A stretch of 64,000 nucleotides of DNA from Ruminiclostridium cellulolyticum H10 (GTDB lineage: Bacteria; Bacillota; Clostridia; Acetivibrionales; DSM-1351), in contig NC_011898.1 in the NCBI RefSeq assembly GCF_000022065.1, positions 2,782,501 to 2,846,500 of the forward strand, read 5' to 3'. The notes beneath the pieces are model-generated. The model worked only from the letters and a program-made list of their open reading frames with translations. It did not search any database and was not told the DNA's origin. Shown piece by piece: positions 11,214 to 64,000 of the stretch. A program made the translations under genes and the position numbers. Within the stretch, counting starts at the first letter, position 1; every line of letters begins with the position of its first letter.

Positions 11214-11227
11214 CTTCCGCCTCCTGA

Positions 11228-13731: not shown

Positions 13732-13772
13732 ATATGTTGCTTTAGGAAAGCCTACTACTGCGAGAATGTCTT

Positions 13773-15262: not shown

Positions 15263-15314
15263 AATGAAATCGATCTCCCTTTTATAAATTATTATAACCT
15301 ATTTGTAAATTAAT

Positions 15315-16412: not shown

Positions 16413-16461
16413 AATTTTAACCCCTTGTAAATGTTGTTTTTTAGCACCTGTTTTCGAAATA

Positions 16462-16716
16462 TCATATTTTGCTTTCAACGTAGTCCACGATATCTCTTAT
16501 AGTAGAAAACTTGGCAAAGTCAAGATGCTCATTATCAAATTCAAACCCAAATTCATTTTCAAGCATCACCACTAATTTTACAAATTCTACCGAATTCAAA
16601 CCAAACGTAGCCAAAGTCTCATCCACTCTGATATTATCGGCAATATCCGAAGCCTTGTAATTTTCCTTTATAACCTTTTTTAATCTCGTTTCCACCATTT
16701 CTGACATAACCCTCAT
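16462..16716 (-). CDS. Free acyl/aryl carrier protein
   Basis: 84 residues forming a four-helix carrier protein with FGLNSVEFVKLVV; Ser42 is the phosphopantetheine site. The start may be residue 1 or residue 4 (ATG ATG-spaced; AAAGGA lies 2 or 11 nt upstream). It lies between the last PKS and the GriH/GriI pair. It may carry the aryl amine, serve as a partner for the terminal BtrH-like domain, or carry a starter unit made elsewhere. None of these can be chosen from sequence. Confidence 0.85.
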   Translation of the reverse strand: MRVMSEMVETRLKKVIKENYKASDIADNIRVDETLATFGLNSVEFVKLVVMLENEFGFEFDNEHLDFAKFSTIRDIVDYVESKI

Positions 16717-46800: not shown

Positions 46801-49800
46801 AAGAAAATCCATGAATGTTCTGTTTTTTCCGGGGTTACTTCTGAGTGCAATAGTATTTATAAACATCCCCACTGTATTCTGTATATCTGCATGTTTTCTT
46901 CCTGCCGAAGGAACACCGACTATGATATCATCCTGCCCGGTTAGTTTTGAAAGAAGTACGTTATATGAAGACAGCAGAATCATAAACATGGTTGTGTTGC
47001 TTTCCGATGCTAAGTTTCTGATTTTTGATGTTGTAAATTCATCGATTTCAAATTCATATACTTCACCCTTAAAGTCCATTATAGGTGGTCTGGGATAGTC
47101 TATGGGCAGATTCAGCACAGGTATCTCACCCTTAAAGGTTTCAAGCCAGTAGCTTTCCTGACCTTTCATTATTTCTGACTTAAGGAGCTTGTTCTGCCAT
47201 ACAGAAAAGTCCTTATATTGAATTTTTACAGGAGGAAGATCCTTACCTTTATAAAGTGCAAACAAATCTTTCAGAAGAATATTAACGGATGTACCGTCAG
47301 ATATTATATGATGCATATCCATTATCACAACATGCCTTTTTTCCTCCAAGGGTATCAAACCTATCCTTATAAGTAGAGCTTTACTAAGATCAAAGGGACG
47401 TATGAAACCTGTTATCTTGTTGTCCAAGTCCTCTGATTCAACATCATTATTCTTAATTATTTCAAGACCAAATTCAACGTCCTTGTGAACCAGCTGGCAC
47501 GGCTCCCCATTTACAACCTCGAAGGAAGTCCTTAATATTTCGTGCCTTTGTAATAGTTCCTTTGCAGCACTTTCGAGCTTTCCAATATCCAAGTTTCCTT
47601 CTATTAAAACTGCTCCGTATATATTGTAGCTGGTTTGGGTATCTTCAATCTGATTGAGTATGAACATTCTTCTCTGGGCTTGAGACATTGGATAATATTC
47701 TCGTTCCGGCTGAACCTCTATTACATCATATACTGCTTTATTTTCTTTCTGGTTTATATAATTTGCTAATTGTCTTATTGTAGACATGGTGAAAATATTG
47801 GTAAGTGATACTTCTGTATTAAACTCCTTATTTATTCGTAAGGACAGTATCATTGCACTTAGTGAATTACCACCAAGATCAAAAAAGTTCTCAGTTACAC
47901 CTAAAATATCTGTATTTAGTATTTCCTTGAATATATCCGCTAATCTCTCTTCTAGCTCATTTTGTGGTTTCTGTCGTTCGGTTTCCGTCAGAGAAATTCT
48001 GTCAGGCTCCGGTAAGGCCTTTCGATTAATTTTGCCGTTAGGGGTCAGAGGCATCTTTTCTATTTGTACAAAACGGGACGGAATCATATAACCAGGTAAT
48101 GATTTTTGCAAGTAATCTCTTAATTCAGTTATGGATAGTCCGGTATCTGAAACAATATAAGCACATATATATTTTCCGCCTGTACTATCCTCCTTGGCAA
48201 TAGCAACTGCCTCCCTGATTGCAGGATGGCTCAAGATGGATGCCTCAATTTCACCCATTTCAATTCTATATCCTCTTATTTTAACCTGGTTGTCCACTCT
48301 GCCTAGAAATTCTATGTTTCCCTCCTGCGTCCACTTTGCCAAATCACCTGTACGGTATACCTTTCTACCAGATATACCTTCACACTCAATAAATCTCTCC
48401 TTGGTCAAGCCCGGGTCATTATAATACCCCCTTGTCAATCCTATGCCTCCAATGCACAGCTCTCCAACCATTCCTTGTGGAACAAGTTTTTGATTTTTAT
48501 CCAAAATATATATTTGTACATTATCTATGGGCTTTCCAATCGGGACAGCTGTTTCCTGCTCAATTATATTATTATCAATCCTATAAAAAGAAGCAATATC
48601 TGTACATTCTGTTGGGCCATAAGTGTTTACAATATCCGCACTGTATGCCATTGACTTTCTCCAAGGCAACAGTTTTCCCATATTTATAGGCTCCCCTCCC
48701 AGGAAAACTCTCGAAAGCGATTGGAGTCTAAGAAATCCTGAGTCTGCATTAAAGTCTATCAACGGATAAAATGCACTTGGGGTACAATTAATCATTGTTA
48801 CATGCTCTTTATTTATTACCTCCGACATACGTTCATAATCATACAATCCCGGGGAGAATATGCAGAGACATCCTCCAGTAACCAGAGTACTGAAAAAATT
48901 CTTTTGTGCCAAGTCAAAACTTGCCGGGGCAATAATCAAATTACAATCCTTTTCTCCAATGTCAAATTCTCTTACAAACCAATTCAAAAGATTCACAAAT
49001 GAATGACTCTTTACCATTACCCCCTTTGGGTTCCCGGTTGAGCCCGAGGTGTATATTACGTACATCAGTCTCTCAGGGTTATACTCAAGATTCAGATTTG
49101 TAACGGGCAGGTTGTTATTATCCAACACTTCACGCACAGCTATTGTTTCGGTATTTTCAAGGTACATATCCTCCGAAATTTTCTTCCCGGTGAGAAGCAT
49201 GGAGGTATTTGAGTTATTGATAAGAAAATCTATTCTCTCTTTTGGGTAATCAGGGTCAATTGGCAGGTAGGCTCCTCCTGCTTTCAGGATTGCCATGATG
49301 CCGATGACAAGCTCCATTGATCGTTCAACCATAATTCCTACTACAGAATCTTCTCTGACACCTTTTTCTATCAGATACCACGCAATTCTGTTTGACTTTT
49401 CGTTTAATTCATGATACGTCAATTGTTTTCCTTCAAATATCAATGCAATATTATGAGGCGTTTTCTGCACCTGTTCTTCAAAAAGCTGATGTATTCCACT
49501 ATAAAACGGATACTCACGTTTAGTACTATTAAGGTCGAATAAGAGATGTCTTTTTTCTTCTGTTGTCAGTATATCTATATCTGATAGCCTTATTTCAGGA
49601 TTCAAAACAACTTGATCCAGTATTTTGGTAAAATGTCGAGTAATTTTTTCCGCGGTTTCTCTCTTAAACAGTTTTGTACAGTATTCAAGAGAAAAGTGTA
49701 TTACTTGCCCATCGTCAAAAGCATTTAGTGAAAGGTCAAATTTAGTCTGTCCATTGCTGATATCATAGGGAAATAGTTTAAGATTTTCTAACTCAATTTC

Positions 49801-52800
49801 CTCAATATCATTGTTGAAGGAAAACATTGTATCAAATACAGGATTTCTGCTTGTATCTCTGTGTAAATTCAAATTATCAACAAGTTCTTCAAACTGATAA
49901 TCCTGATTATCGTATGCCTCCAGACAGCTTTCCTTTACCCTCTCCAGAAACTCTCTGAATGTACTTTCACTATCTATAGTATTTCTAATAGCAAGAGTAT
50001 TTACAAATACTCCTACAATATTCTCCAAGTCAGAATATGTTCTGCCAGAGACAGGAGTTCCTATAATAATATCCTCTTGCCCCGAATACTTTGAGAGCAG
50101 TACATTGTATGCAGTAAGTAATACCATAAAGAAAGTTGCCTTTGTACCTTCTGCCATAAGTTCCAGTTTTCTCTTGATATTATTATCAATATTAAATTCT
50201 ACTTTGTCTCCCTCATAACTCTTAACAGACGGTCTTGGAAAATCTGTCGGTAAGTTAAGTACAGGAATTTCACCTGAAAATTTATTTATCCAGTATTTCT
50301 CTTGCTTTAGTATCTCGCCTGATTCAAACAATTTGTTCTGCCACTCAGAAAAGTCCTTATATTGAAATTTCAGTTCAGGCAGTTCTTTTCCTTCATATAG
50401 TTGTAAGAACTCCTTTATAATAATATTAATAGATAATCCATCAGCAATTATATGATGCATATCAATTAACATAAGGTGCTTACTATCCGCCAATCTAATT
50501 AATCCTACCCTGAATAACGGTGCTTTCGCCAGGTCAAAGGGTTTTATAAAACTACCAATGGCCTTTAACAAGTTATAATCCGGCTGTATTTGTTCTATTT
50601 TAAATTCAGCACTAGCCGTAATTCGTTGGACAGGAACTTGTCCATTAAATTCGAAGACTGTCCTAAATGCATCGTGACGATTTATTAGTTCTGAAAATAT
50701 TTTTTCCATGTGTGAAATGTCAAGGTCACCTTCTATAATAAACGCTGCTGGCATATTGTAGCTGGTGTTTACTTCATCAAATTGATTTAATATGAAAAAC
50801 CTCTTTTGAGCCGAAGACAGGCAATAATAATCTCTTTCCTCTACAGGTTTCAAATTTATATATAAAGCCTTGCTTTTGCTGTCTATGTATTTAGCAATAC
50901 CCTCTATATTGGGAGTAGATAGTAAAATACTTATGGGAACTTCTACGTTTAAATCTTTAAAAATCCTGGAAGACAGAGTTATTGCCTTGAGAGAATGCCC
51001 CCCTAATTCATAAAAGTCATCTTTTATACCTAATTTTTCTATTTGAAATACATCCTGCCAGATTGGAACCAGTGACTGTTCTGTATTGTTTCTTGGTTCT
51101 ATATATTCTGTTCTCTTCTTTAAGGTATCCTTAGGATTTGGTAGTGCGTTTTTATCTAATTTCCCATTTATTGTAAGGGGCATTTTTTCAATTTGTACAA
51201 AATATGTGGGTATCATATACTCAGGAATTTTGTCTGAGAGATGCTCTCTTAATTGTGTTACTCCTAACTTCTCATTTGCTGTGAAATAAGCACATAAAAC
51301 CTTATTCTCAGAATCTTCTTTCCTGTCAGTTACTACAGCTTCCCTTATATTTTCATGTTTCTGTAGCTGAGCCTCAATTTCACCCAGTTCTATTCGGTAT
51401 CCTCGTATTTTTACCTGACCGTCTTTTCTTCCGATAAATTCAATATTCCCATCCGGCAGCCACCTTCCCAGATCCCCGGTTTTATACATTTTTTTATCAA
51501 CATTAAAAGGATTAGGTATAAAACGTTCCGAAGTCATTTGTTCCCTGCTCAGATATCCTACTCCCACACCTGTACCGGATATATATACCTCTCCTATACA
51601 GCCCCGGGGAATCAGTTCTTGGTTCTCACCTAAAATATAAACTTGAACGTTTGGCATTGGCTTTCCAATAGGTATGATTTTTGAACCCGCTAAATCACTG
51701 GGGTTCAAGGTATAAAAGGTGGAATCAACACAACACTCGGTTGGCCCGTATACATTGGTTATTTCAGGAGTATTGCCTTCAAATCTGCTGTAGAATTTCT
51801 CTACAGTTGTGTAGTGTAGGGCTTCTCCTCCGATTATAAAGTGTTTGACCTTCATATTTTTAATATCTGAGGACGCATTCAGGGCAAGCCCGGCCAAATG
51901 GTTTGGTGTGCCGTCAGATATGTCTATTTTGTTCTCAATATAAAACCCTTCAAGCTTTTTGCCGTCAGATCTCACATCATCAGGTACTATATACAAACTA
52001 TGCCCAAACAAAAGTGATGTAAATATTTGTTGTACAGAAGCATCAAATACGAAAGGAGCTACAATAGCAACTTTCAATCTACCAATATATTTTCTGTATA
52101 TATTCAGCTCCAGGCCGTTCACAAGGTTTACAACGTTTTCCAAAGTTATCATTACGCCTTTGGGCTCTCCTGTGGAACCTGATGTGTATATTACGTATGC
52201 CAGGTCGTCCGCACCTCTCGAAATCAGAGGATTATCACAGGATGAATTATTAAATGCTTTAGAATTTAAATCTATGATAATTCCGTTATACTCAAGTTCG
52301 TGAGAATGTGTATTCTGAACAAGCACAGCCTTTGCATCGCTATCCGTCAGCATGTATTCAATTCTTTTGACAGGGTAGCTTGGGTCAATTGGCAGGTATG
52401 CACATCCGGCTTTTAATATCCCCATTATTCCTATAATAGTATCTGCTGATCTTCCGGAAATCAGACCGACTATATCACCTTTTTTCAGTCCTTTTTCAAT
52501 AAGCATTTGGGCTGCTTTGTTTGCTTGAACGTTTAGCTGCTTATATGTCAAACTCTTTTCACTGCATACTACCGCAGTATCCTCAGGCCTTATTGCTGCC
52601 TGTTCTTCAAACATATCAATTATTGTTTTTTTATTTTCAAATTTGTAATCCGTATTATTAAAGGCATTAAGCAGGGTATCTTTTTCTTCTTTATTCAGAA
52701 TGCTGAATAATCCAATCCTTTGATCAGGATTTTTGAGGCATTCCTCCAAGGTGGTCATAAAATAGTTATATATTCTTTTTACTGTGCATTCATTATAGAT

Positions 52801-53409
52801 GGTATCGGAATATTCCAGCGTGAAATCTATTCCAATTTCACTATGTCTATAAGATATTATAAGATTATGCTTTTTATCTCGAACTGTTTTATTGTGGAGA
52901 TTTTGAGATAGAAAAAGTATATCATAGACATTTTTCTCTATGCCCAGTTCGCTTAGTATTTTTTCCAGGGGATACTCCTGGTTTTCATAGGCCGCAACCA
53001 CGTCTTCTTTGGTCTTTTTAAGTAATTCCTTATATGATTGGTTCCTATTAACCAGATTATGTATGATTATCTCATCATTAAAAAACAAGTCCTTACTGCT
53101 ACCCTTATAAACGGGGCTCAAAACGTGCAGACTATTCTTCCCAGAGTACTTATACAGGAAAACCTCAAAAGCGGTGAGAAGAATTATAAAGATAGACATT
53201 TCAGAGCCTTTACCTATTTTGATAATTCTATCCGTAATATCAGACTGAACAGTAAAATAAAGCTTTTTATTCAATTCTCTTTCAGTACTTGCGTTAAAAT
53301 CCAGTTCAATCATTCTGGTTAACTCTATATCTGATAGTTGTTTACACCAAAAATCCCTTTGTTCCCTATACTTTTTTGACGAAAGCAATATATTGTCATA
53401 GGTTTTCAT
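40819..53409 (-). CDS. Four-module NRPS flanked by half condensation domains
   Basis: 4196 residues. 1-275: C-terminal lobe of a C domain without the HHxxxDG lobe. A1 (near 411) pocket D-A-Q-D-I-G-V-V-D, close to the Gln code of lichenysin; PCP1 near 803. C2 HHIIADG near 986; A2 near 1455, pocket D-L-K-N-F-G-T-D-I, not assigned; PCP2 near 1845. C3 HHIISDG near 2030; A3 near 2520 is unusual (YSHTVAAIDIF without the pocket Asp; LFGASE for YGPTE); PCP3 near 2908. C4 near 3100 has HHIISDA; A4 near 3568, pocket D-I-L-Q-M-G-M-V-W, glycine-like; PCP4 near 3950 (LGGNS). From about 3965 to the end comes an orphan C-lobe-like domain (LPQDYF, LLALYFYLLYQV). No E, MT or TE domain. Good RBS (GGAGG). Pocket readings are by eye. 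Confidence 0.92.
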   Translation of the reverse strand: MKTYDNILLSSKKYREQRDFWCKQLSDIELTRMIELDFNASTERELNKKLYFTVQSDITDRIIKIGKGSEMSIFIILLTAFEVFLYKYSGKNSLHVLSPVYKGSSKDLFFNDEIIIHNLVNRNQSYKELLKKTKEDVVAAYENQEYPLEKILSELGIEKNVYDILFLSQNLHNKTVRDKKHNLIISYRHSEIGIDFTLEYSDTIYNECTVKRIYNYFMTTLEECLKNPDQRIGLFSILNKEEKDTLLNAFNNTDYKFENKKTIIDMFEEQAAIRPEDTAVVCSEKSLTYKQLNVQANKAAQMLIEKGLKKGDIVGLISGRSADTIIGIMGILKAGCAYLPIDPSYPVKRIEYMLTDSDAKAVLVQNTHSHELEYNGIIIDLNSKAFNNSSCDNPLISRGADDLAYVIYTSGSTGEPKGVMITLENVVNLVNGLELNIYRKYIGRLKVAIVAPFVFDASVQQIFTSLLFGHSLYIVPDDVRSDGKKLEGFYIENKIDISDGTPNHLAGLALNASSDIKNMKVKHFIIGGEALHYTTVEKFYSRFEGNTPEITNVYGPTECCVDSTFYTLNPSDLAGSKIIPIGKPMPNVQVYILGENQELIPRGCIGEVYISGTGVGVGYLSREQMTSERFIPNPFNVDKKMYKTGDLGRWLPDGNIEFIGRKDGQVKIRGYRIELGEIEAQLQKHENIREAVVTDRKEDSENKVLCAYFTANEKLGVTQLREHLSDKIPEYMIPTYFVQIEKMPLTINGKLDKNALPNPKDTLKKRTEYIEPRNNTEQSLVPIWQDVFQIEKLGIKDDFYELGGHSLKAITLSSRIFKDLNVEVPISILLSTPNIEGIAKYIDSKSKALYINLKPVEERDYYCLSSAQKRFFILNQFDEVNTSYNMPAAFIIEGDLDISHMEKIFSELINRHDAFRTVFEFNGQVPVQRITASAEFKIEQIQPDYNLLKAIGSFIKPFDLAKAPLFRVGLIRLADSKHLMLIDMHHIIADGLSINIIIKEFLQLYEGKELPELKFQYKDFSEWQNKLFESGEILKQEKYWINKFSGEIPVLNLPTDFPRPSVKSYEGDKVEFNIDNNIKRKLELMAEGTKATFFMVLLTAYNVLLSKYSGQEDIIIGTPVSGRTYSDLENIVGVFVNTLAIRNTIDSESTFREFLERVKESCLEAYDNQDYQFEELVDNLNLHRDTSRNPVFDTMFSFNNDIEEIELENLKLFPYDISNGQTKFDLSLNAFDDGQVIHFSLEYCTKLFKRETAEKITRHFTKILDQVVLNPEIRLSDIDILTTEEKRHLLFDLNSTKREYPFYSGIHQLFEEQVQKTPHNIALIFEGKQLTYHELNEKSNRIAWYLIEKGVREDSVVGIMVERSMELVIGIMAILKAGGAYLPIDPDYPKERIDFLINNSNTSMLLTGKKISEDMYLENTETIAVREVLDNNNLPVTNLNLEYNPERLMYVIYTSGSTGNPKGVMVKSHSFVNLLNWFVREFDIGEKDCNLIIAPASFDLAQKNFFSTLVTGGCLCIFSPGLYDYERMSEVINKEHVTMINCTPSAFYPLIDFNADSGFLRLQSLSRVFLGGEPINMGKLLPWRKSMAYSADIVNTYGPTECTDIASFYRIDNNIIEQETAVPIGKPIDNVQIYILDKNQKLVPQGMVGELCIGGIGLTRGYYNDPGLTKERFIECEGISGRKVYRTGDLAKWTQEGNIEFLGRVDNQVKIRGYRIEMGEIEASILSHPAIREAVAIAKEDSTGGKYICAYIVSDTGLSITELRDYLQKSLPGYMIPSRFVQIEKMPLTPNGKINRKALPEPDRISLTETERQKPQNELEERLADIFKEILNTDILGVTENFFDLGGNSLSAMILSLRINKEFNTEVSLTNIFTMSTIRQLANYINQKENKAVYDVIEVQPEREYYPMSQAQRRMFILNQIEDTQTSYNIYGAVLIEGNLDIGKLESAAKELLQRHEILRTSFEVVNGEPCQLVHKDVEFGLEIIKNNDVESEDLDNKITGFIRPFDLSKALLIRIGLIPLEEKRHVVIMDMHHIISDGTSVNILLKDLFALYKGKDLPPVKIQYKDFSVWQNKLLKSEIMKGQESYWLETFKGEIPVLNLPIDYPRPPIMDFKGEVYEFEIDEFTTSKIRNLASESNTTMFMILLSSYNVLLSKLTGQDDIIVGVPSAGRKHADIQNTVGMFINTIALRSNPGKNRTFMDFLQEVRKNSLEAFEYQDFQFELLLDMLGIKRDLSRNPLFDTVLNFYNMNDSDNNYMSDETDFNLYPYEVKNNVAKFDIVLYASETDERLKFYCNYRTSLFKSSTIEYIMGEYVKLLGIIADEPEKLIRDYYIFSRESIVNKRNPIVLKNNGPEKSGTIKEHKTLVESIEKQVEEHRESTAVKTHDRLVTYGELNDSANNIANIILKKSKSNDRVTLLFEHGADMIIGILGVLKTGRSYVPLDPAYPEERLVDIFKDSGAEILVTNDKNLKYAEELVHILNRKVYLINIDKVDLISPANNPKIAIEPEQTAYILYTSGTTGKPKGVMQSHKNIMELVGNYAEELLISHADRLGLTTSYSHTVAAIDIFSALLNGAGIYPYDLKNKGSIENMSNWIEENSISILHTVPSIYRYFIKSIDKTKRISDTRLIILGGEVVYSSDIEEYKLLFSDDCIFVNLFGASEILVATFYLVDKNTQVNTRTVPIGYELEGVSIQLLNDDNKAAGIYECGELVYHSHYLSQGYWNLDEKTNHQFERNPETGEVIAYKSGDLARLLPSGTIEHLGRKDTQVKIRGMRIELTEIESVVGGLKGIRECAAIVLEKPNQENTIVVFYVPENEEVIENKQFKLMLKSKLPEYMIPSLLYPVESIPHTPNGKVDRKALSIKNVDVKEEAAYEPPTNQVEERMTEIWSEILEIGKIGVNENFFELGGHSLKATSLVSRIHKAFQVEVKLGEVFSYPTIRELAKLITDSVKENYKPIKPVGKKENYPASSAQKRLFILNQIEDAKTTYNIPGAAIINGVLDREKVERAFNKLVQRHESLRTAFSIVNGELVQIVKDKIDLKVTFLEVEKVPGTKESTDEIIEIFKEFVKPFDLSKAPLLRVALIKIDLDKHILLYDIHHIISDATSIGILVNEFIDAYCGKELRELKVQYKEFSTWQNELLKTDIIKKQEEFWLDYFKGELPLLNLPTDYTRPSTQSFEGDTLSFELDGELLQLLKKTANKTGTTLFMLLLSAYNILLSKYSGQSDIIVGSPIAGRVQTELENVVGMFANTIAMRNNVDGNKTLGMFLSDVKENTIQVYENQLYQFDVLINKLNLNRDLSRNPLFDTMFTMQNMNISERVVDGLSIMPYGMDNRTSKFDITVEVKEDDGKLIFIMEYCTRLFRKETIVRMAEHLKNIIKALTLNLDTPITEVSLLSDTEKRQILYEFNNTKADYPKNKTIHELFEEQVIQNPDFIAAICNSEEITYMDLNTRANRIAEVLRDRGVQRDSLVAILVSRSLEMLAAILGVLKSGAAYLPLDPEYPEERLRFILEDSNAHILLANSNLNSGISFHGEVIDLAHGSINQKSGENLPNINNPKDLAYVLYTSGSTGKPKGVMISHDAVCNFMTGVTDKIRIEKGSSILALTTISFDIFVLETLLPLCHGLKVVIADEDHQKDPRMLRGLITGKNIDMLQMTPSTLQILMNELKNLSCFNSVKQVMIGGEAFPETLLRELRKVYKGKIYNMYGPTETTVWSAIKDLTKNSCVSIGGPIANTQILIMNGDNLQPIGVAGEVCIGGDSLARGYLNRSELTKEKFVSSELVPGKRLYKTGDLAKWMPDGSIAFMGRIDNQVKIRGYRIELDEIEKCILKYNLINECVVIAQEDEFSNKQLICYYVSSEEITVSEIMQHIGRDLPDYMIPGIYVRLASIPLTPNGKVDRRALPAAGTARPNIDSEYKEANSEIEKKIAEIWKSILKCDQIGINDSFFQLGGNSILLVRMHEELEKHYPGKINVSKLFIHNTIAKLSEFISQDDKKAVNKLELEATRLPQDYFTGSMHEQYENKAFKYSFTSDLSNKITNFSLDSGQGLKEILLALYFYLLYQVSEEERIVVHTITDNENRILPLGMNIGEVDELDSLFTLVSDLCEDTQNSYDTDMLKTVAPNKEKDTATMLFSSENSRGMADCRIYDIIINPEIDKNVISLTTEYNAARIEKHKIEELIGKYINLINIVFERMI

Positions 53410-53445: not shown

Positions 53446-54552
53446 TCAAAAATTAAAGTCTATATCAAAATCATTGATATTTTTTTCTTCATCCTCGTTT
53501 ATACCGGATTTACTTTCAATATTGTTCAGGTCTATCCCTATATCTCTTGCAAGACGGTCCAACAAACCCTCCGGCGGATTAAATTCAAGGTCTTCTGCAG
53601 CTTGTTCCCTTGAAATTTCACCCTCTCTAATCAAAATTGAATACTCATCAGTGTATGCACTATAGTTCATTTTCCTTATATCCATATATGTATTAAGCCA
53701 GATCATCTCACAGTTTGTAGTTCTTGCAGGGTAGGTTGTCTTTAAGGGTTTCCAGTCAAATCTGTCCATGCATATTTTTTTCAGGACTTCCTTGTCCGTC
53801 TTGTAAAATTTAAAGATATAGAATGGGATTATAAGAATTTTTTCGGCATTTATACCCGCTATCAGGTCATTTGGGTCCTTAAATATTTTTTGTCTTCCCA
53901 GAAACTCATATTTTCTGGCAAACTCTTCAAAAAATTCCACATCTCCGGTATTTCTGATTACTTCTATCATTTTTTCCAACTGCTTGCTTCCTTTTTCCTG
54001 ATCTCCTATGAGAGCAGCCTGTCCTTTAGAATATCCGTTGATTATTAGAGGTATGTCAAAATTAGAAGCCAGTTCAAGAGCGTTCAGATACAGTATATTT
54101 CCGCATACATAGCAGGCGTTCAACCCCTGAATATTACACTCATTAAAGTATTTCCATAACTTTTTCATAAAGGTAAAGTCATTCTGCCACAAAATCATAT
54201 CTACGTTTAATTCTCGGCAAAGCTTTCTGACATTATCCGTTGCCGTTTCGTCCTCATATCCGTGGTCATTGTGGAATACAAGAGGTCTTAGTTTGAACTT
54301 TTCAACTATATTAATCAAGGCGACGCTGCTGTCAACTCCTCCGCTTAATGGTACAAGAACATCGTACTTACCCCTAAGTCCTTTGTATTCTTTCAGTCTC
54401 TCAGCAAGTTCATCCTCATTTTTGAAGTACAATTTCTCCTGGCTGCTATTTTTCTTTTCCATGAAATCATTACAGTAATTACAAACTCCCTTTTCGTCGA
54501 ACTCAATTCCTGAATATGTTTCAGGCAGAACACAGTTTTTACACTCTCTCAT
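53446..54552 (-). CDS. PP-loop ATPase of the amidotransferase/thioamide-synthetase type
   Basis: 368 residues. N-terminal Cys pairs C4xxC7 and C24xxC27 (CKNCVLPET, GVCNYC), a probable zinc site. PP-loop S70-GGVDSS that binds ATP and releases pyrophosphate. A further C147xxC150 (NACYVCG). This is the N-acetyl sugar amidotransferase (WbpG/PseA-like) layout, which activates a carbonyl as an adenylate before attack by N or S. Related enzymes of the alpha-ANH superfamily make thioamides (CtaC in closthioamide). No sugar genes are near, so here it probably turns a backbone amide, the Gln side chain or another carbonyl into a thioamide or amidine; this is inference. The C-terminus DFDIDFNF resembles the end of the PKS-NRPS upstream (DEIDFEF). 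It lies 36 nt ahead of the large NRPS. Confidence 0.75.
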   Translation of the reverse strand: MRECKNCVLPETYSGIEFDEKGVCNYCNDFMEKKNSSQEKLYFKNEDELAERLKEYKGLRGKYDVLVPLSGGVDSSVALINIVEKFKLRPLVFHNDHGYEDETATDNVRKLCRELNVDMILWQNDFTFMKKLWKYFNECNIQGLNACYVCGNILYLNALELASNFDIPLIINGYSKGQAALIGDQEKGSKQLEKMIEVIRNTGDVEFFEEFARKYEFLGRQKIFKDPNDLIAGINAEKILIIPFYIFKFYKTDKEVLKKICMDRFDWKPLKTTYPARTTNCEMIWLNTYMDIRKMNYSAYTDEYSILIREGEISREQAAEDLEFNPPEGLLDRLARDIGIDLNNIESKSGINEDEEKNINDFDIDFNF

Positions 54553-54584: not shown

Positions 54585-57500
54585 CTAGAACTCAAAATCA
54601 ATTTCATCCATAATGCTTGCTTTTTGGTTTAGAGAGGTTCCGTCTTCCCGTTCCTCTAAAAAATCAATGTCTTCTATTTTTATTTCTGGTTCTTCAATAA
54701 CTATTTCAAGTAATTCTTTATAGTATTTAATAAAGTTGTCCATACTGTCTGATCTAAAAAGTGCAGTTCTGTATCTGAAGTCGATTGCTATGTCCCCATC
54801 AACCTTCACAGCATCAATTGTTAAATCAAACTTACTTGTAGTAACGGGAATATTAACAGGCATCATCTTGAAATCATCTACATCGATTCTCTCTTCTCTC
54901 CGAGTCATAAGTGCAAAAGTTATGCTGAAAAGAGAATTTATTTTGGTGTTTTTTTGAGCCTCCAGCCTGCTTATCATCATTTCAAAGGGATAATCCTGAT
55001 TTTCGAAGGCTCCAAAGCAGTTATCCCTTACCTCTTCCAGAAATCCTGCAAAGGTTTTGTTACCGGAGGGGAAGTTTCTCATTGGAAGCATATTTACAAA
55101 CATGCCTACGGTGTTTTCAACATCGGTGTGAATTCTTCCTGATATAGGTGACCCGATAACAATATCCTCCTGTCCTGTATATTTGGAAAGCAGTATGTTA
55201 TAGGATGCAAGCAGTAGCATAAAAAGTGTTACTCCTTGTTTTTGACTGAATTTGTCAAGTCTCTCCGTCAAATCGGCACCCAACTTAAAACTAATACTTT
55301 TTCCTGTATAGTCAGGGACGCTTTCATCATGTTCCTTTTTGTCCACGGGTAAATGTAATACAGGTATATCCCCCGAAAAAATATTTAGCCAGTAATTTTC
55401 CTGCTCTAAAAATTCCTTACTTGAGAACAACTGATTCTGCCATACCGAATAATCCTTGTACTGGGTTCCGGGTTCAGGTAATTCATTATCTTTATATATA
55501 TCAATAAATTCCTTAATAATAATATCGCTGGATGCCCAATCGGTTACAATGTGGTGAAAATCCATCAGCAATAGGTATCTGTCCGATGAGAATTTTACCA
55601 AAAGAGTCTTTACTAATGGCCCTTTATTAAGGTTGAAAGGTTTGACAAAGTCCCTGATAATAGTTTCAGTTTTCTTTTCATCAGCCTCAAAATATCTGAA
55701 GTCGGGTTTGTAATCTTTATGCACTATCTGGGATATACTTCCATTTACTTCTTTGAAGGTTGTCCTTAAAGACTCATGTCTTTGAATTATCCTGCCTATA
55801 GAATTCTCAACACGTTGGATATTAAGCCTGCCTTCAACCATAAGTGCCACAGGTATGTTATAGGTTGTACCGATGTTTCCGTATTGCTCCAATATATACA
55901 ACCTTTTCTGACTGGATGACACAGGATAATAATCACTCTTTTCCGCCTTGCCAATAGGCAGGCTTTTCAATGATGCCTGCTTTGTTTCTGCAAATTCAGA
56001 ATCTATATACTTTCCCAGCTCATAAATGCTTTGATTGTTCATTACATCTGTTATACTGATATTTATTCCCCATGTATTGCGTATAACATTTGTTATTTTC
56101 ATGGCGAAAATAGAATCTCCACCTTGGTCATAGAAACTGTCATATACATTTATTTCGTTGGATTGGAATATCGATGCCCATATATATCCAATTGCTTGCT
56201 CCGTTTTTGTTATTTGATCGTCGGTTTTTCCGGTGAGCTTTATGTCCACAGTGTCCTGCTTGGTGGTTCCAGCTATAATATCAGACTTCCGGGTTTTCTT
56301 ACTCCTGTCAAGAACAGCACTTAATTCAGGCTCAAGTGTTACAGGAAGGGACTCCTTCAGTCCTGCCAGCAGGTTGTAATTCAACTGCCCTGCTATTACT
56401 CTCGGCTGCCCTGATTTCAGTACCTCATCAAACACCCTTACCCCATTGGCAGTACTTAATACCATAAAAACACCATCTCTGTCTGCATTATGCTCTTTAG
56501 CCATACCGGTTTCTTTCCATGCCGCCCAGTTTATACAAAATGTTGGCTGGTTTCTTTTATTCCTGTAATAACAATACGTATCCATATAATAATTAGCCGC
56601 AGTGTAATCACTTTGTCCTGCACTGGTTGTAAGTGTCTCCGCAGAGGAAAACAGTAAAAGGAAGTCCATATTTAAATTGCTTGTAAGACTGTCAATTATC
56701 CATGTCCCTTTGACCTTGGCAGCCATTACTTCTTTTATCCTCTTTTCATCCTTCGTTATTGCAAGTCCATTTCCGGCAATGCCTGCGCTATGGATTATTC
56801 CGTTAATTTTTCCGTAGTTTTTTATTACATCCTCAATTATTAACTTCATAGACTGCATATCAGATACATCACCGTTATAGTATGTTACCTTACTGCCAAG
56901 GCTTTCTATATCCATAATTGATTTGATTTTGTTGCAAAGTTTTAAATCCTTCTCTGTTTCCAGAATCGTGTCCCACTGGCTTCTTTCAGGCATTTCTGAA
57001 CGGTTTATCATAATAACGTTCAGGTTTGTACCCGAAGCCATATGTTTTGCTATTTCCAGCCCGATGCCTCCCAGACCGCCTGTTATAATATACACTCCAT
57101 TTTCCCTGATTTTTACGCTATTGCTTGGATTCTGCTCCCGTTTCACCCTCTTGAGCTGTTCAATGTACCTTCGTCCGTTTCGGAATGCAATCATACGTGT
57201 CTTATGTACGGTTTGGAACTCTGAAATAATGGACTCTGCCTCACAGCCTTCGTCCATATCTATACACTTGATTTTTAAATTTGGGTATTCCTTTTTTAAT
57301 ACAAAAGCCATGCCGAACAAGGCTGCATTCTCAGGATTTAAGCATTCCTCATTTCCGGTTACACTATTGACGTATGTGGAAAGTATTACTATTTTTATAT
57401 CCTTCCCTGTATTTTTTTGCATCCATGCTTTGGTGAGCCTGAATAAATTGTAAACACTATTTTCAAGCTTGTTCTCAAGTATCTTTATATCGGAGGTATC

Positions 57501-60500
57501 AGGCAAGCCTGAATCTGGTGAATACACAATATAGTTTATATCCTTGATACTTTCCTGCGAAAATAATTGATAAAAGTCTTCTTGTGAGTACCCTACAGAA
57601 TATTTGTCTTTTCCCAGTACACCGTATTCTTCTCCGGTATTAACCTCTATTACTTTGATTCCCTTTGCTTCAAGCCTGTTTATAATTTCATTGCAGCTTC
57701 TGCTCTTATCACTGAAAAACAAAGTACTTTTATTTCCGTCTAACAAATCAAATGCTTTATCCTGTGCAGTATCCGAATATTCAACCCACTCAATAGAGTG
57801 AAGTAAATCGGTTTTGTTTAAAAGTTGTCCGGCATCTTTTTTGGTTACATACCTGTCAACCTCCATTAAAACCCTTCTGTTTTCATCAACCAGAGTAATG
57901 TTATATTCAATTGTTCTGTCGGAATTATTCAATATTCTTACATGGCTTATGATCTTTGAAGATATAGGGTTGTGTATTTTAACTGAATTAAAATGGAAAG
58001 GAAAATAAAAACCAGCCTTCTCTGCCTGGTCTCCCGCAAAATTCAAGGCTGTGTCAAGCATTGGCGGATGTAACTGGAATTCATCAAAGTCACCCTTGTA
58101 TTCCTCCCCAAGCTCAAGATATCCCAGTGCTTCATTTGTACCGCTAAAAGCCTTTGTCAGGCATTGCCACCTTTTGCCCACTTCTACAACCGCATTTTTT
58201 TGTTTGTTTTCTATATCCCATTCATTGGTACATCTCTGTAATGCCTCTGTCATATCATATTTATCTGACAACTTTTCGGTGCCATAAATCCTGCCCTGTG
58301 CATGTTCAATCCAACCGTTTTCAGCTGTCTTGGATTTACTGGCTATTACAAATTTCAAGAAACCGTACTCTTTCATAATAACCGTATGAAGTTCAACCTT
58401 ATCCTCTTCGCCAACAATTAACGGAGTTAGCAGAGTAAGCTCTCTTATCTCCACTGCCTTACCCGGGTAGTATTTTTTTGAGGTTTGCATTGCCAGCTCA
58501 AGATAAGCTGTTCCTACAAGCATGTAGTTGCCCCCTACCTTATGTTCTCTTAACAGCCATTGATTTTCCACGCTTATCTCAGCAGTATAAACTTCCTGAT
58601 TTATGGTGTCAGAAATACGGTATCCCGGAAGCTTGTACCTTTCCCCATGACTTTCCTGTACACTCTCCTTCATTTGTCTCTTTGTATCAATCCAGAAGCG
58701 TTTTCTGTTGAAGGGATAAGTGGGCAGGCTTACCTTATTTTCAGATTTATAAAGGAAATCCCAATCAATATCCCCACCTGTTGTATATAAAATACATATT
58801 TCCTCAAGAGTTCCCCTGTTATAATTACCACTGGTTACAAGTTCTTTCAGCCTTTCAGACGCTGTTTTGCTTAATTCTCTCTTATCTGTTTCCGAAATAT
58901 ATCCGTCGTTTTTTATTCCTTCACTATTTCTTACCACTTTATGGTAACCATAGTATACGCCTTGCTCCCTTATACCTTTAGGCTGCAGGTCTGCAAGCTT
59001 GGATATTTTTTCCTCCATATCATGCCTGTTTTCCAGTATCAGGGCAATTCTAAGCGAATGATGCATTCTGCCCGTGTTCTGGGTAAAGCAGATATCTTCT
59101 ATGGACACTTCTTTATTCTTTTTCAGGTATTCATCAAAGCTTTTTAGTAAACTATACAGGGATTTCTCATTTTTAGCCGAAAGTGTTAAAACCTGTAGTT
59201 TGCTTTGTGGGTTTTCTGATTTTCCTTTGCTGTTAGGTGCTTCTTCCAAAATCATGTGACAATTTGTACCACTAATACCAAAAGAGCTTATCCCGCATCT
59301 CCTTGGGTAGCCCATTGTCTCCCATTCATGAAGACGGTCATTTACATAAACAGGCGAATCTTCAAACATTATTTTCCTGTTAGGCCTTTTGAAATGCAGG
59401 GTCGGCGGTATCTGACCATACTGAATACAGAGTACTGCCTTTATCAGTCCGGCAATACCTGCCACGTTGTCCAGATGCCCTATATTTGACTTTACAGAAC
59501 CTATTGCACAAAACTGCTTTTTATCTGTATATTTTTTAAATGCCCTTTTAATACCATCTATCTCTATTGGATCACCAAGTTTTGTTCCTGTCCCGTGAGC
59601 CTCAATATATGACAATGTTTCAGGATTGATGCCGGAATCTTCCCAGGCTTTAACTATTGCATCTCTTTGGGCAAGTGAATTAGGAGCAGTAATTCCTATA
59701 GAACTTCCGTCATTGTTAGCTGCACTTCCTTTAATAACCGCATAAATATGATCTTTGTCATTTAATGCCTGCTCCAGCGGTTTTAGCAGTACAGCAGCCA
59801 CCCCTTCTCCTATTCCTGTGCCGTCAGAGTTATCATCAAATGTTCTTGCCTTGCCGTCTGACGAAGCAATGCCTACATTCTCACTGTCATCTGTTTTTAA
59901 AGGCAGAAGCAATGTTTTTATTCCTCCTGCTACTGCTATATGGCATTCTCCGTTCCGTATAGCCTGACATGCCAGATGTACTGCCATAAGTGATGATGAG
60001 CAGGCCGTATCCACCAGCATACACGGGCCCTTTAAATCAAGTATGTATGCAATCCTGCTGGCCAGCATGGAATTCACATTGCCTGCCAGGGATTCTGGTG
60101 CAAGGGAAGCTTCGCTTTCCCAAAGAAGTGTTTCGTATGTGGGCTTTGAACCGCTGTACCCTATATATACACCTGTTTTGCTGCCCATAATTCTCTTGCC
60201 GCAGTATCCTGCATCCTCAATTGCCTCCCAAACATTTTCCAGAAATAATCTTTGGTTGGGATCCATCAGGCTGGCTTCTCTGGGTGATATATTGAAAAAA
60301 TCGTTATCAAATTTATCAAGTTCTTTAAAAAATGCACCCTTCAAATACTCGGTATTACCTTTTTTATTACTGAACTTACTTGCAAAATGCATACAATCAC
60401 TTTGCCTGGTGCCTGAGAGGTCTGTTATCAAATCTTTTCCGTCTTTTATGTACTCCCAATACTGACTAAGATTTTCTGCAGCACCAAACCTCCCCGACAT

Positions 60501-60605
60501 TCCTATGATAGCTATATCTTTCTTTGATATGTTCTCCTTGAGAATTCTATTTTCTGCAAGGGAAAACAATTCGTTCTTATTGAGATTAAGCAGTTTATTA
60601 ACCAA
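54585..60605 (-). CDS. Hybrid PKS-NRPS: KS-DH-KR-ACP-C
   Basis: 2006 residues from a TTG start (GGGGG 7 nt upstream), 15 nt after the preceding NRPS. KS about 30-460 (VDTACSSSL near 200, EAHGTGT, NIGHL). DH near 687 with EHKVGGNYMLVG, where the usual Pro of HxxxGxxxxP is Val, and HPPMLDTAL. KR GGLGGIG near 1178 with FSSAETLTTSAGQSDYTAAN. ACP near 1491 with DQGGDS. A complete C domain from about 1560, HHIVTDW near 1683, where the usual Gly is Trp. It ends in an acidic tail, MDEIDFEF. A terminal C domain requires an A domain supplied by the next protein; the large NRPS, which starts without an intact C, fits. No AT. Expected outcome: one two-carbon extension, then amide formation. Confidence 0.92.
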   Translation of the reverse strand: MVNKLLNLNKNELFSLAENRILKENISKKDIAIIGMSGRFGAAENLSQYWEYIKDGKDLITDLSGTRQSDCMHFASKFSNKKGNTEYLKGAFFKELDKFDNDFFNISPREASLMDPNQRLFLENVWEAIEDAGYCGKRIMGSKTGVYIGYSGSKPTYETLLWESEASLAPESLAGNVNSMLASRIAYILDLKGPCMLVDTACSSSLMAVHLACQAIRNGECHIAVAGGIKTLLLPLKTDDSENVGIASSDGKARTFDDNSDGTGIGEGVAAVLLKPLEQALNDKDHIYAVIKGSAANNDGSSIGITAPNSLAQRDAIVKAWEDSGINPETLSYIEAHGTGTKLGDPIEIDGIKRAFKKYTDKKQFCAIGSVKSNIGHLDNVAGIAGLIKAVLCIQYGQIPPTLHFKRPNRKIMFEDSPVYVNDRLHEWETMGYPRRCGISSFGISGTNCHMILEEAPNSKGKSENPQSKLQVLTLSAKNEKSLYSLLKSFDEYLKKNKEVSIEDICFTQNTGRMHHSLRIALILENRHDMEEKISKLADLQPKGIREQGVYYGYHKVVRNSEGIKNDGYISETDKRELSKTASERLKELVTSGNYNRGTLEEICILYTTGGDIDWDFLYKSENKVSLPTYPFNRKRFWIDTKRQMKESVQESHGERYKLPGYRISDTINQEVYTAEISVENQWLLREHKVGGNYMLVGTAYLELAMQTSKKYYPGKAVEIRELTLLTPLIVGEEDKVELHTVIMKEYGFLKFVIASKSKTAENGWIEHAQGRIYGTEKLSDKYDMTEALQRCTNEWDIENKQKNAVVEVGKRWQCLTKAFSGTNEALGYLELGEEYKGDFDEFQLHPPMLDTALNFAGDQAEKAGFYFPFHFNSVKIHNPISSKIISHVRILNNSDRTIEYNITLVDENRRVLMEVDRYVTKKDAGQLLNKTDLLHSIEWVEYSDTAQDKAFDLLDGNKSTLFFSDKSRSCNEIINRLEAKGIKVIEVNTGEEYGVLGKDKYSVGYSQEDFYQLFSQESIKDINYIVYSPDSGLPDTSDIKILENKLENSVYNLFRLTKAWMQKNTGKDIKIVILSTYVNSVTGNEECLNPENAALFGMAFVLKKEYPNLKIKCIDMDEGCEAESIISEFQTVHKTRMIAFRNGRRYIEQLKRVKREQNPSNSVKIRENGVYIITGGLGGIGLEIAKHMASGTNLNVIMINRSEMPERSQWDTILETEKDLKLCNKIKSIMDIESLGSKVTYYNGDVSDMQSMKLIIEDVIKNYGKINGIIHSAGIAGNGLAITKDEKRIKEVMAAKVKGTWIIDSLTSNLNMDFLLLFSSAETLTTSAGQSDYTAANYYMDTYCYYRNKRNQPTFCINWAAWKETGMAKEHNADRDGVFMVLSTANGVRVFDEVLKSGQPRVIAGQLNYNLLAGLKESLPVTLEPELSAVLDRSKKTRKSDIIAGTTKQDTVDIKLTGKTDDQITKTEQAIGYIWASIFQSNEINVYDSFYDQGGDSIFAMKITNVIRNTWGINISITDVMNNQSIYELGKYIDSEFAETKQASLKSLPIGKAEKSDYYPVSSSQKRLYILEQYGNIGTTYNIPVALMVEGRLNIQRVENSIGRIIQRHESLRTTFKEVNGSISQIVHKDYKPDFRYFEADEKKTETIIRDFVKPFNLNKGPLVKTLLVKFSSDRYLLLMDFHHIVTDWASSDIIIKEFIDIYKDNELPEPGTQYKDYSVWQNQLFSSKEFLEQENYWLNIFSGDIPVLHLPVDKKEHDESVPDYTGKSISFKLGADLTERLDKFSQKQGVTLFMLLLASYNILLSKYTGQEDIVIGSPISGRIHTDVENTVGMFVNMLPMRNFPSGNKTFAGFLEEVRDNCFGAFENQDYPFEMMISRLEAQKNTKINSLFSITFALMTRREERIDVDDFKMMPVNIPVTTSKFDLTIDAVKVDGDIAIDFRYRTALFRSDSMDNFIKYYKELLEIVIEEPEIKIEDIDFLEEREDGTSLNQKASIMDEIDFEF

Positions 60606-60620
60606 GTCAATGCCCCCAAA

Positions 60621-63600
60621 TTAATATTCGTTTACATTCAGCTCCTCAAGTATTTTTTCTAGGACTACCGTGTGTGCTGAAAACAATTTTTCCATGCTTC
60701 CCATACTCAATCTTGAATAATCGTATGTATAAATCAGCTTTATACTGTCAGCCTCCTCTGTCATTTTAACGTGAATGTCATAGGGTCTGTTCATTTCATT
60801 AGGAAGGTCGCAGTTTATGCTGAATAACGGCAGTACGGTGTTATGTTGTTTACCGGCTATATTTATCCTCTCTAAAGAACAAATATTTTTTTTCTGCGGA
60901 TAAATACGCTGTTGTCCGATTAATTCAACAAATTTCACAAGACTATCCGCTTGTGATAAGTCCGTGGTTATCAGGCAAATAGCATTTCCCCATTCACCTT
61001 TTGCATGAAGAGTTAGTTGATTATCCCCTATTATTTCGCAAAGAAGGTATATAAATGCTCCCATTACAATATCACTGGATTTTAAATCGTTTTTTCCTGA
61101 AATAGCTTTTAATGCACTGTATGTTTCACGGCTGAGTACATATTTGTATATTTTTTCCTCAAAGTCCTCATTTTCTTTGATAAAGTATTCTTCCGGCAGA
61201 ATAATCCCGGAGGCTTCAACCGCATTTGCAAATTCAGGTGCATCCTTTTCTGACGATATTAATTTAGCCAGCTTTGCGATTGTAGGAAAAGCAAAAATAT
61301 CGGAGACCGTTAATTTATCCGGATAAATTTCTTCTATCCGAGAGTACATCTCCATAAGTCGAATAGAATTTCCTCCTAAGTCAAAAAAGTTTTGATTTGT
61401 ACCTGCTACCTCTTTACCGAGAACCTCCTCCCACACTTTTATAAGCTCCTCTTCAATGTAGTTTGTCGGTGCCTCACACAAATCATTCAGTACAGTTTCC
61501 ACATCAGGCTCCGGTAGCATTTTCCTGGCAATCTTACCGTTAGGTGTTTTAGGGAATGAATCCAGTTTGATAAAGTGCTGAGGTACCATATAATTAGGTA
61601 ATCTTACTGAAAGGTACTCTTCCAGTTCCTTATTTTTAATATTTGCATTCAATACTGTATAAGCACACAAGGTTTTCTGTCCGTCAAGATCATTAACTGT
61701 AACTACAGCCTCAATCACATTGGTATGCATTTGCAAATGATGCTCAATTTCTCCGATTTCAATTCTGTAGCCTCTTATTTTAACCTGCTGATCTATTCTT
61801 CCAATAAACTCAATATTTCCGTCAGGCAGCCATCTAGCCATATCCCCTGTCCTGTACATAGTTTCACCAGGTATGAAGGGATTATCAATAAATTTCTCAG
61901 CTGTCAGCTTATCTGCATTGAAATAACCTTTTGCCAAACCGTGTCCCGATACACACAATTCACCCGGTACACCGATAGGCTGCAATTTATCATTCCTGTC
62001 CAGAATATAACACTTGGTATTGTTGATTGGTTTACCAATCAACACCTCCGTCCTGTCCTTGTCGAACTCATAAAATGACGTACAGACACTGTTTTCCGTC
62101 GGTCCATATTCATTTACCAGCCTTACATTGCCAAGCTTTTCAAAGTGTTTACTGACTAAGGTGCTGGTGAAGCTTTCACCTGCAATAGTGATAATTCTTA
62201 CATTCTTCATACTGTCTGAAATCTCATCCAGTAAAACTCTGTAAAAACTTGGTACAACCAGCAAGTTTGTAATTTTTTGCTTAATAAAAATTTCTCTAAG
62301 CTGAGGAAGGTCAAACCTGTCCTCTTGGTTTATCAATACAAGTCTTGCACCTGAGATAAGTGCTGTAAAAATATCTTCAACAGAGCTGTCAAATGAAAAA
62401 GACGGAATTTGAAGTACTGCATCATTAGGATTAAAACCGTAATACTTTCGTCTCCATTCAAGTGTGTTGACAATTGACTTATGCTCAATCATTACGCCTT
62501 TTGAATTTCCGGTGGAACCTGAAGTATATATTATATAAGCCAGATTGTCAGGCGATGGCTTTATATTGGGCTCAATACAGTCAAAGCATTCAATTTCCTC
62601 ATTTTTTATACAGATAGTATTGTATCCGCTGTCAATTCTTTCAGCTAATTCGTATGAAGTAAGTAATAAGTCTGTATTGCTATTATTTAACATATACTGT
62701 ATTCTGTGACTAGGGTACTCAGGGTCTATAGGCAGATATGCCGCCCCGGCTTTCAGTATTCCTATTACCCCGGCAACCATGTCTATAGAACGATTAACCA
62801 TAATACCCACTACACTGCCGGGCTTTACTCCTCTACTCTGCAAAAAACCCGCTATTCTGTTTGCCTTTGCATTTAACTCACAATAGGAAAGCTCAGTCTG
62901 TTCATGGACTATCGCTATATTGTCCGGAGTACGTCTTACCTGCTCAATAAAAAGCTCCACCAGAGTTTTATCCCCTCGAAGTGCGGTTTCGGTGTAATTA
63001 AATTCATACAGTATCCGATGCTTTTCGCTATCCGTCAATATTCCTATGTCTGCAATCGTCTTGCTTGCATCCTTTATAATTTGCCTGAGTATGTTCATAT
63101 AGTGCGTTATCATTCTTTGTGCTGTTTCCTGTTTGAAAAGCTTTGTACTGTATTCAAGGTAGCACGGTATGGTTTCGCCTCCGTCACCTATTTCCAGTGA
63201 AAAATCAAATTTGGACATATTGTACTTGAAATGGTAATAGTTAAATTTCAGATTATCTATAGCTATGTCGGGCAGTCCCATATTTTGTACTATAAACATA
63301 GTATCAAACAGTGGATTCCTGCTTGCATCCCTTTTTATTCCAAGGTCATTTACAAGGTCATCAAATTGATAATCCTGATTCTTAAAAGCATCCAGAACAT
63401 TTATTCTAACCTTTTCAAGAAAATCAGTAAATTTCATTTCGTATTTTGGACAGTTCCTTAGTGCAACAGTATTTACAAACATACCTATCATGGACTCCAC
63501 TTCCGGCAGTTCACGTCCCGCAACCGGAGAACCCACAATGATATCCTCCTGACCGGTATATTTTAAAAGCAGGATATTGTAAGCTGCAAGAAGTATCATA

Positions 63601-64000
63601 AATAGTGTAGTATTGGTTCTCGCAGAAAGTTCTCTTAGTCCGCTTATAATGTCACAATCCAATTCAAACCCTATTCTGTTGCCGTCAAAGGTTCTGCTGT
63701 GCAGCCTTGGATAGTCAGTCGGCATACCAAGTACCGGTATTTCTCCTGCAAAGGCACCAAGCCAGTATTCCTTCTGCTTCTTAATATGTTCTGAGTCAAG
63801 CATGTCATTCTGCCATTGTGCAAAATCCTTGTAACTCAGAATTATTTTGTCCAGTTTTTTACCCTTGTACAGGTCAACGAATTCCTTTACGATAATGCCC
63901 ATGGATATTCCGTCTGAAATAATGTGATGTATATCAAACATTAATATATGATTTTCCTGAGCCAGCTTTACAAGCTTTATTCTAAGCAGTGGAGCTTCTT
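60621..64000 (-). CDS. NRPS module C-A-PCP with orphan C lobe (5' end outside window)
   Basis: The frame is open to the right edge, so the N-terminus and any earlier modules are missing. Visible: C domain from the edge (HHIISDG near 63920), A domain about 62990-61500 (YTSGSTGNSKG near 62510; pocket read as D-S-E-L-T-A-E-V-C, not assigned but with the Asp expected for an alpha-amino acid), PCP with LGGNS near 61370. From about 61230 to the stop comes a ~200-residue orphan domain (LPEEYF, VMGAFIYLLCEII, RPYDIHVKMTEEADSIKLIY) that looks like the C-terminal lobe of a condensation domain. The same kind of end is seen on the large NRPS. The following gene is a PKS, so this end probably contacts its KS. 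Confidence 0.88.
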   Translation of the reverse strand, partial: EAPLLRIKLVKLAQENHILMFDIHHIISDGISMGIIVKEFVDLYKGKKLDKIILSYKDFAQWQNDMLDSEHIKKQKEYWLGAFAGEIPVLGMPTDYPRLHSRTFDGNRIGFELDCDIISGLRELSARTNTTLFMILLAAYNILLLKYTGQEDIIVGSPVAGRELPEVESMIGMFVNTVALRNCPKYEMKFTDFLEKVRINVLDAFKNQDYQFDDLVNDLGIKRDASRNPLFDTMFIVQNMGLPDIAIDNLKFNYYHFKYNMSKFDFSLEIGDGGETIPCYLEYSTKLFKQETAQRMITHYMNILRQIIKDASKTIADIGILTDSEKHRILYEFNYTETALRGDKTLVELFIEQVRRTPDNIAIVHEQTELSYCELNAKANRIAGFLQSRGVKPGSVVGIMVNRSIDMVAGVIGILKAGAAYLPIDPEYPSHRIQYMLNNSNTDLLLTSYELAERIDSGYNTICIKNEEIECFDCIEPNIKPSPDNLAYIIYTSGSTGNSKGVMIEHKSIVNTLEWRRKYYGFNPNDAVLQIPSFSFDSSVEDIFTALISGARLVLINQEDRFDLPQLREIFIKQKITNLLVVPSFYRVLLDEISDSMKNVRIITIAGESFTSTLVSKHFEKLGNVRLVNEYGPTENSVCTSFYEFDKDRTEVLIGKPINNTKCYILDRNDKLQPIGVPGELCVSGHGLAKGYFNADKLTAEKFIDNPFIPGETMYRTGDMARWLPDGNIEFIGRIDQQVKIRGYRIEIGEIEHHLQMHTNVIEAVVTVNDLDGQKTLCAYTVLNANIKNKELEEYLSVRLPNYMVPQHFIKLDSFPKTPNGKIARKMLPEPDVETVLNDLCEAPTNYIEEELIKVWEEVLGKEVAGTNQNFFDLGGNSIRLMEMYSRIEEIYPDKLTVSDIFAFPTIAKLAKLISSEKDAPEFANAVEASGIILPEEYFIKENEDFEEKIYKYVLSRETYSALKAISGKNDLKSSDIVMGAFIYLLCEIIGDNQLTLHAKGEWGNAICLITTDLSQADSLVKFVELIGQQRIYPQKKNICSLERINIAGKQHNTVLPLFSINCDLPNEMNRPYDIHVKMTEEADSIKLIYTYDYSRLSMGSMEKLFSAHTVVLEKILEELNVNEY

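Follow-up and report, generated by a model that had tools for sequence, protein, structure and literature searches.

A candidate thioamide-forming AANH enzyme and a possible docking tail in a trans-AT PKS/NRPS cluster of Ruminiclostridium cellulolyticum

The assembly line and the gene within it

The window considered here, a stretch of 64,000 nucleotides (genome positions 2782501–2846500) from Ruminiclostridium cellulolyticum H10, carries on the minus strand at positions 53446–54552 an ATG-initiated open reading frame (P0001) for an AANH (PP-loop) protein of 368 residues, with an AGGAGG ribosome-binding site 6 bases before the start codon. It is separated by 32 bases from the gene at 54585–60605 and by 36 bases from that at 40819–53409, all three being on the same strand. 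The suggestion in an earlier note on this DNA that a PP-loop enzyme lies between assembly-line genes is borne out to the exact limits of the reading frame, with PP-loop SGGVDS and PKS/NRPS genes on both sides.

These genes belong to a trans-AT PKS/NRPS cluster some 75 kb long, one operon-like run that extends past the window end. It comprises a C-A-PCP protein, transport and beta-lactamase-like genes, a PPDK-like enzyme, two B12-radical SAM enzymes, a free acyltransferase, six KS-bearing proteins and several NRPS modules; domain and gene-context calls beyond the searched models were made by motif or by BLAST with the window's own domains. Taken from the window's end inward, and all on the minus strand, domain calls give the window part (60621–63998) of a 2508-residue KS-KR-ACP-C-A-PCP protein, then a KS-DH-KR-ACP-C synthetase (54585–60605) that ends in its C domain and, on the other side of the AANH gene, a 4196-residue NRPS (40819–53409) composed of a half-C, A-PCP and three successive C-A-PCP modules. 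There follow a trans-acting malonyl acyltransferase (39547–40818; TIGR00128 above cut-off), a B12-binding radical SAM enzyme (37652–39523; Pfam PF04055, with PF02310 below its cut-off), a KS-DH-KR-ACP-C-A-PCP-C-A-PCP protein (26555–37651), a KS-DH-KR-ACP polyketide synthase (21671–26512) and a KS-KR-ACP polyketide synthase (16775–21649). This last has a BtrH_N/C39-peptidase-like C-terminal domain in place of the usual thioesterase, possibly an unusual release domain.

What does this line make? Its six KS match none of the KS counts of CcelA–D (16, 2, 1 and 3) in a published cluster list (PMC3250452), and no product of the cluster was found in the literature searched. By manual motif extraction, the A-domain code of the first module after the AANH gene is DAQDIGVVD, which looks Lys-like, and there is no Gln code among the readable A-domain codes of the cluster, several being unreadable. 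The Gln side chain, which the earlier note had entertained as a target, accordingly lacks support from the readable codes and has been set aside.

Other genes deserve mention in their own right. The PPDK-like enzyme has antibiotic-phosphotransferase domains (L006:15572-18010), and another protein of the cluster joins a beta-lactamase-like domain to an ABC ATPase (joined coordinates 81937–85035); both may pertain to self-protection or export. At the cluster's downstream end are a DhnA-type aldolase and a 3-dehydroquinate synthase II (window 14459–16478), a pair of the 3-amino-4-hydroxybenzoate-making kind. A CcpM Cys-rich-peptide radical SAM maturase and its TIGR04066 partner (window 10083–12616 and 12931–14369) are parted from the PKS/NRPS genes by an IS3 transposase.

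Family, kinship and cysteine sites of the AANH protein

An AlphaFold model of the focal protein, made from 44 natural homologues (mean pLDDT 90.3), has as its top match in a fold search the sugar amidotransferase LpNASAT (8WEX; Z 22.3 over 312 residues). Tied behind it at Z about 12 (11–12.5) are [4Fe-4S] LarE (8CP4), the tRNA thiolase NcsA (6SCY), the nitrile synthetase ArtA and other PP-loop enzymes, several non-sulfur enzymes sharing this rank with 8CP4 and 6SCY; YcfA is also among the matches. The best curated sequence model, TIGR03573 WbuX, likewise points to sugar enzymes (E 4.7e-47), but at 161.1 bits the protein is below the curated cut-off of 203.2 bits. Members of its own clade from the focal, L019 and L020 loci score 157–168 bits, CtaC 124 and five other assembly-line homologues (two of the focal clade and three outside it) 148–175, all below the cut-off; the four HisH/HisF-linked enzymes tested reach 295–356. 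HisH/HisF genes were found at about 20 other AANH loci. In the joined ~114 kb around the focal gene no HisH or HisF (match threshold E 1e-3) and no AsnB was found, and among the annotated genes of the cluster no glycosyltransferase or nucleotide-sugar gene was seen, so the earlier remark that sugar genes are missing holds good.

Homologues were sought in 84,980 scanned species genomes and by further genome searches. There is a sharp break in identity, with eight homologues at 49–59% and the next at 32% and below. Two of the eight are copies in a Ruminiclostridium relative and four are on contigs of three Aminicenantes MAGs; a Firmicutes MAG and a Spirochaetes MAG contribute one each. Together with the focal protein the eight form a nine-member clade (support 100/100), every member of which is beside or inside NRPS/PKS (thiotemplated) genes. 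In a 79-domain tree all HisH/HisF-linked enzymes fall on one side, and on the other fall CtaC, the focal clade and all but one distant row of the assembly-line AANHs, a split with which the TIGR03573 scores agree. Its support is 99 (SH-aLRT) in a quick tree and 91/90 in a careful one; an 18-row set containing both CtaC and the focal clade, in distinct subclades, has 83/85. To our knowledge CtaC is the sole characterised enzyme on the assembly-line side. The earlier note had looked to phylogeny for a verdict, and the best tree does part the focal clade from the HisH/HisF-linked enzymes. Yet an alternative tree in which the clade joins the sugar enzymes is worse by 7.5 log units, and the AU test does not reject it (p 0.38); the tree was discarded as proof of sulfur chemistry.

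Mutation of the PP-loop Asp or Ser kills CtaC, single mutations at its cysteines lower activity, and D77, S78, C154, C157 and C284 are all needed (PMC6772006); the residue numbering there is matched exactly by the protein of this same genome, which pins the latter down as CtaC. By alignment each of the five has an exact counterpart in the focal protein. D74 and S75 are in the PP-loop SGGVDS (residues 70–75; 54328–54345), C147 and C150 form a CxxC (54103–54114) that also aligns with the CxxC of PDB chain 8CNZ, mmLarE-[4Fe-4S], and C281 is in the motif TTNC (53710–53712), the three cysteines being putative Fe-S ligands. Separately, an N-terminal tetracysteine, C4/C7…C24/C27 (54472–54543), aligns with what is, in LpNASAT too, the zinc-binding hallmark of the family (PMC10607449), from which its identity as a zinc site is taken. 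The ‘extra CxxC pairs’ of the earlier note are thus part ordinary and part not: the tetracysteine is normal for the family, and C147xxC150 with C281 is a second site, for which profile alignment finds no equivalents in crystallised LpNASAT 8WEX.

The triad is kept in all nine members of the focal clade and in every complete assembly-line homologue aligned. It is absent from 13 of 20 HisH/HisF-linked homologues, but the other seven carry it, and for that reason it is no proof of sulfur transfer and was rejected as such. The conclusion that the focal protein is not a typical sugar amidotransferase is supported by its score below the cut-off, the lack of HisH/HisF, the CtaC-type cysteine site and its assembly-line ties.

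Placement in relatives, tails and half condensation domains

In two relatives the AANH is fused to an NRPS directly behind a C domain (C-A-PCP-C-AANH at L023, A-PCP-C-AANH at L024). At the focal locus and at L019–L022 the AANH gene is separate and follows that of a synthetase whose last domain is a C domain; the AANH gene of L011 comes after an A-PCP gene, and that of L013 is in a KS/ACP cluster devoid of NRPS modules, where it adjoins an AsnB-type gene. What these fusions, gene orders and contexts share is carrier-bound chemistry, most often beside a C domain, and action of the focal-clade AANHs on a carrier-bound chain is well supported.

The focal protein ends in a tail (residues 349–368; 53449–53508), predicted to be disordered (pLDDT about 40–50), with the terminus DIDFNF, and the preceding synthetase has a common DFxF ending (DEIDFEF; motif EIDFEF at 54588–54605). 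A survey of 1159 ORFs found twelve acidic FxF-type tails, all of them at the focal locus and L019–L022, the only other pattern matches being unrelated HLNF and YLRF endings. The bearers are synthetases ending in C, three of five AANHs and two B12-radical SAM enzymes. The 4196-residue NRPS that follows begins with a C domain reduced to its C-lobe (residues 1–235; 52705–53409), which aligns to residues 163–416 of a 430-residue full-C reference (E 2e-23). All seven NRPSs that start with a C-lobe alone are at these same five loci, and each is preceded by tailed genes, either immediately or across an intervening untailed AANH. In the focal cluster the tail is missing from those synthetases that are not followed by such an NRPS. 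As the five loci derive from a Firmicute and three Aminicenantes MAGs, the pairing is not one lineage's habit, and lateral transfer of these clusters among lineages is possible. From this co-distribution we propose that the DFxF tail docks onto the half-C. The tail is nevertheless absent from four separate AANH proteins and both fused ones among the nine clade members, and so the clade as a whole cannot depend on it.

The idea that DFxF tags proteins across the whole R. cellulolyticum genome was considered and rejected: a DNA pattern of DFxF followed by TAA or TAG gave 14 matches against 27 in the reversed control, with no enrichment outside the cluster, the focal gene itself being invisible to the pattern because it ends in TGA.

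AANH domains turn up in other settings as well. R. cellulolyticum has four homologues (G000:C1 1170200, 1213791, 2835949 and 3812237), all in thiotemplated clusters, and the one at 1213791 (L010:10753-11742) keeps the triad and is missing the tetracysteine. At L008:5830-12258 (G000:C1 1165829-1172257) another NRPS of this genome has an A domain with two insertions, one a B12-binding/radical SAM region and the other, near A8, an AANH whose degenerate PP-loop, SGGRGA, is without the catalytic Asp and Ser; this AANH may be an inactive relic or have changed function. NRPSs that contain an A domain and an inserted radical SAM region are also present in the focal cluster (L006:8155-13836, minus strand; joined coordinates 72054–77735) and at two Aminicenantes loci (L019:8997-14624 and L022:8860-12519), B12-binding being found where scanned. 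Sister AANH clades on the assembly-line side (L030, L039, L049, L055, L056 and L074; L034, L035, L040, L047, L053 and L060) have an AsnB-type gene nearby and mostly A, C or KS domains too. The AANHs of L043, L044, L048, L054, L107 and L108 are inside larger, mostly NRPS, proteins, and those of L069, L079, L087, L093 and L094 are proteins of 664–684 residues that have no triad and an unassigned N-terminal half.

Proposed chemistry and its counterparts

In the AANH family a PP-loop points to adenylation of an amide oxygen. On balance we lean towards the focal protein being a trans-acting, carrier-dependent AANH that is docked on the assembly line, works like CtaC and makes a thioamide. With ATP it would adenylate the oxygen of a fresh amide on the carrier-bound chain; a [4Fe-4S] cluster on C147, C150 and C281 would supply sulfide, and departure of AMP would leave the thioamide. 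Cluster and sulfide delivery are envisaged by analogy with CtaC, TtuA and LarE. The tail would bring the enzyme to the junction of the synthetase (54585–60605) and the NRPS (40819–53409) by binding the half-C at the N-terminus of the latter, a site that the upstream synthetase's own tail may also bind. Fusion, gene order and tail all suggest that the enzyme acts at the C-domain junction leading into the Lys-like module, and the likeliest target would be the junction amide between the polyketide chain and the first (Lys-like) amino acid. That sulfur rather than nitrogen is the atom inserted seems the better guess because no ammonia-supplying partner was found. A wider proposal is advanced only tentatively, and we would put it at rather less than probable: that AANH and B12-radical SAM tailoring enzymes are recruited to a defined NRPS/PKS junction by the DFxF tail that links synthetases, the half-C being the receptor, and that a C domain and an AANH together make up a unit for thioamide formation, which occurs as one polypeptide too.

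The thioamide-or-amidine idea of the earlier note gains an assembly-line enzyme with a CtaC-type site, two fusions in relatives and a shared tail, though neither triad (7 of 20) nor tree (AU p 0.38) decides between sulfur and nitrogen. Might ammonia instead attack the same adenylate, as in WbpG-type sugar acetamidino formation, to give an amidine on the assembly line? The fold closest to a sugar amidotransferase, the AU test's compatibility with kinship to the sugar group, the retention of the triad in one HisH/HisF-linked subgroup and the AsnB-type neighbour at L013 would all accommodate this. It is nevertheless unlikely, given that HisH, HisF and AsnB are all wanting within ~114 kb, that the protein is below the WbuX cut-off and that the HisH/HisF-linked subgroup without the triad shows that amidine formation has no need of one. 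Also unlikely, and slightly the more so, is that PP-loop chemistry on the carrier-bound chain gives a different product, a thioacid, nitrile or new amide in place of a backbone thioamide or amidine. AANH chemistry is diverse, as ArtA, LarE and YcfA among the fold matches attest, and the clade is in quite different thiotemplated clusters, that of L013 included; but a position immediately after a C domain, whether fused or separate, speaks for an amide that has just been formed, and the ArtA-type and QueC-type enzymes match only at the level of a domain and rank far below 8WEX.

That the substrate is a sugar or a free building block, with the gene present here only incidentally, is very improbable: the annotation name and the fold do match sugar enzymes, but natural NRPS fusions, placement conserved in a Firmicute and three Aminicenantes MAGs, the tail shared with a synthetase and the lack of visible sugar genes all run counter to it. 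Least credible is a structural or inactive docking factor, for which the L008 paralogue, shorn of its PP-loop Asp and Ser and still inside an A domain, is a precedent, since in the focal clade, which spans several phyla, the PP-loop (V/L variation only), the seven cysteines and most of the pocket residues are conserved.

The thioamide reading would, if true, give the closthioamide producer a second line for thioamides, this one modular, and the fused relatives would mark where in the line the modification occurs. The shared tail would offer a simple code by which tailoring enzymes could be attached to assembly lines, practical to examine as R. cellulolyticum is culturable, non-pathogenic and genetically tractable, with CRISPR editing published. 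Bacterial nonribosomal backbone thioamides are known essentially from closthioamide (PMC6772006), mutants of which yielded no isosteres. Dunbar et al. there described homologues of CtaC encoded close to NRPS genes, for the most part in anaerobes, with radical SAM genes listed among the clusters in a figure legend, so the association of AANH with NRPS is already known. The SGGVDS/TTNC clade, the fusions of AANH behind a C domain and the pairing of tail with half-C, in which tailoring enzymes also take part, were not found in the literature searched, the comparison being with work other than the 100 CtaC homologues in the supplement of PMC6772006; a phrase search for half condensation domains as docking partners gave nothing relevant.

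Of known systems the nearest is CtaC (Ccel_3258), the closthioamide thioamide synthetase of the same genome (PMC6772006). Both proteins are AANHs with the tetracysteine, PP-loop D/S and CxxC…C triad, both belong to thiotemplated pathways, and both are below the WbuX cut-off and on the same side of the tree. Identity is only about 20%, however, and CtaC has SGGKDS and SSGC where the focal protein has SGGVDS and TTNC. CtaC lacks a DFxF tail and serves a free-standing carrier, its pathway being independent of NRPSs, whereas the focal protein belongs to a modular trans-AT PKS/NRPS and has relatives that are fused to an NRPS. With WbpG, WbuX and LpNASAT (TIGR03573; 8WEX) it shares the overall fold, zinc tetracysteine and SGGxDS PP-loop, but it differs from them in model score, in lacking HisH/HisF, in the second cysteine site that 8WEX is without and in its assembly-line operons. 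The tRNA thiolases TtuA/NcsA and [4Fe-4S] LarE have the PP-loop fold and cysteines of the [4Fe-4S] sulfur-transfer type, a domain-level match (Z 11–12.5); they differ in acting on tRNA or cofactor, in their far lower similarity and in having no NASAT-type tetracysteine aligned. Finally, the proposed docking resembles the SLiM/beta-hairpin docking of NRPS and PKS-NRPS proteins (reviewed in PMC9113145), in that a short disordered C-terminal tail would bind the N-terminal domain of the next protein, but here the proposed receptor is a half-C, the donor ends in C rather than PCP, the pairing is known from co-distribution, and tailoring enzymes are tailed too.
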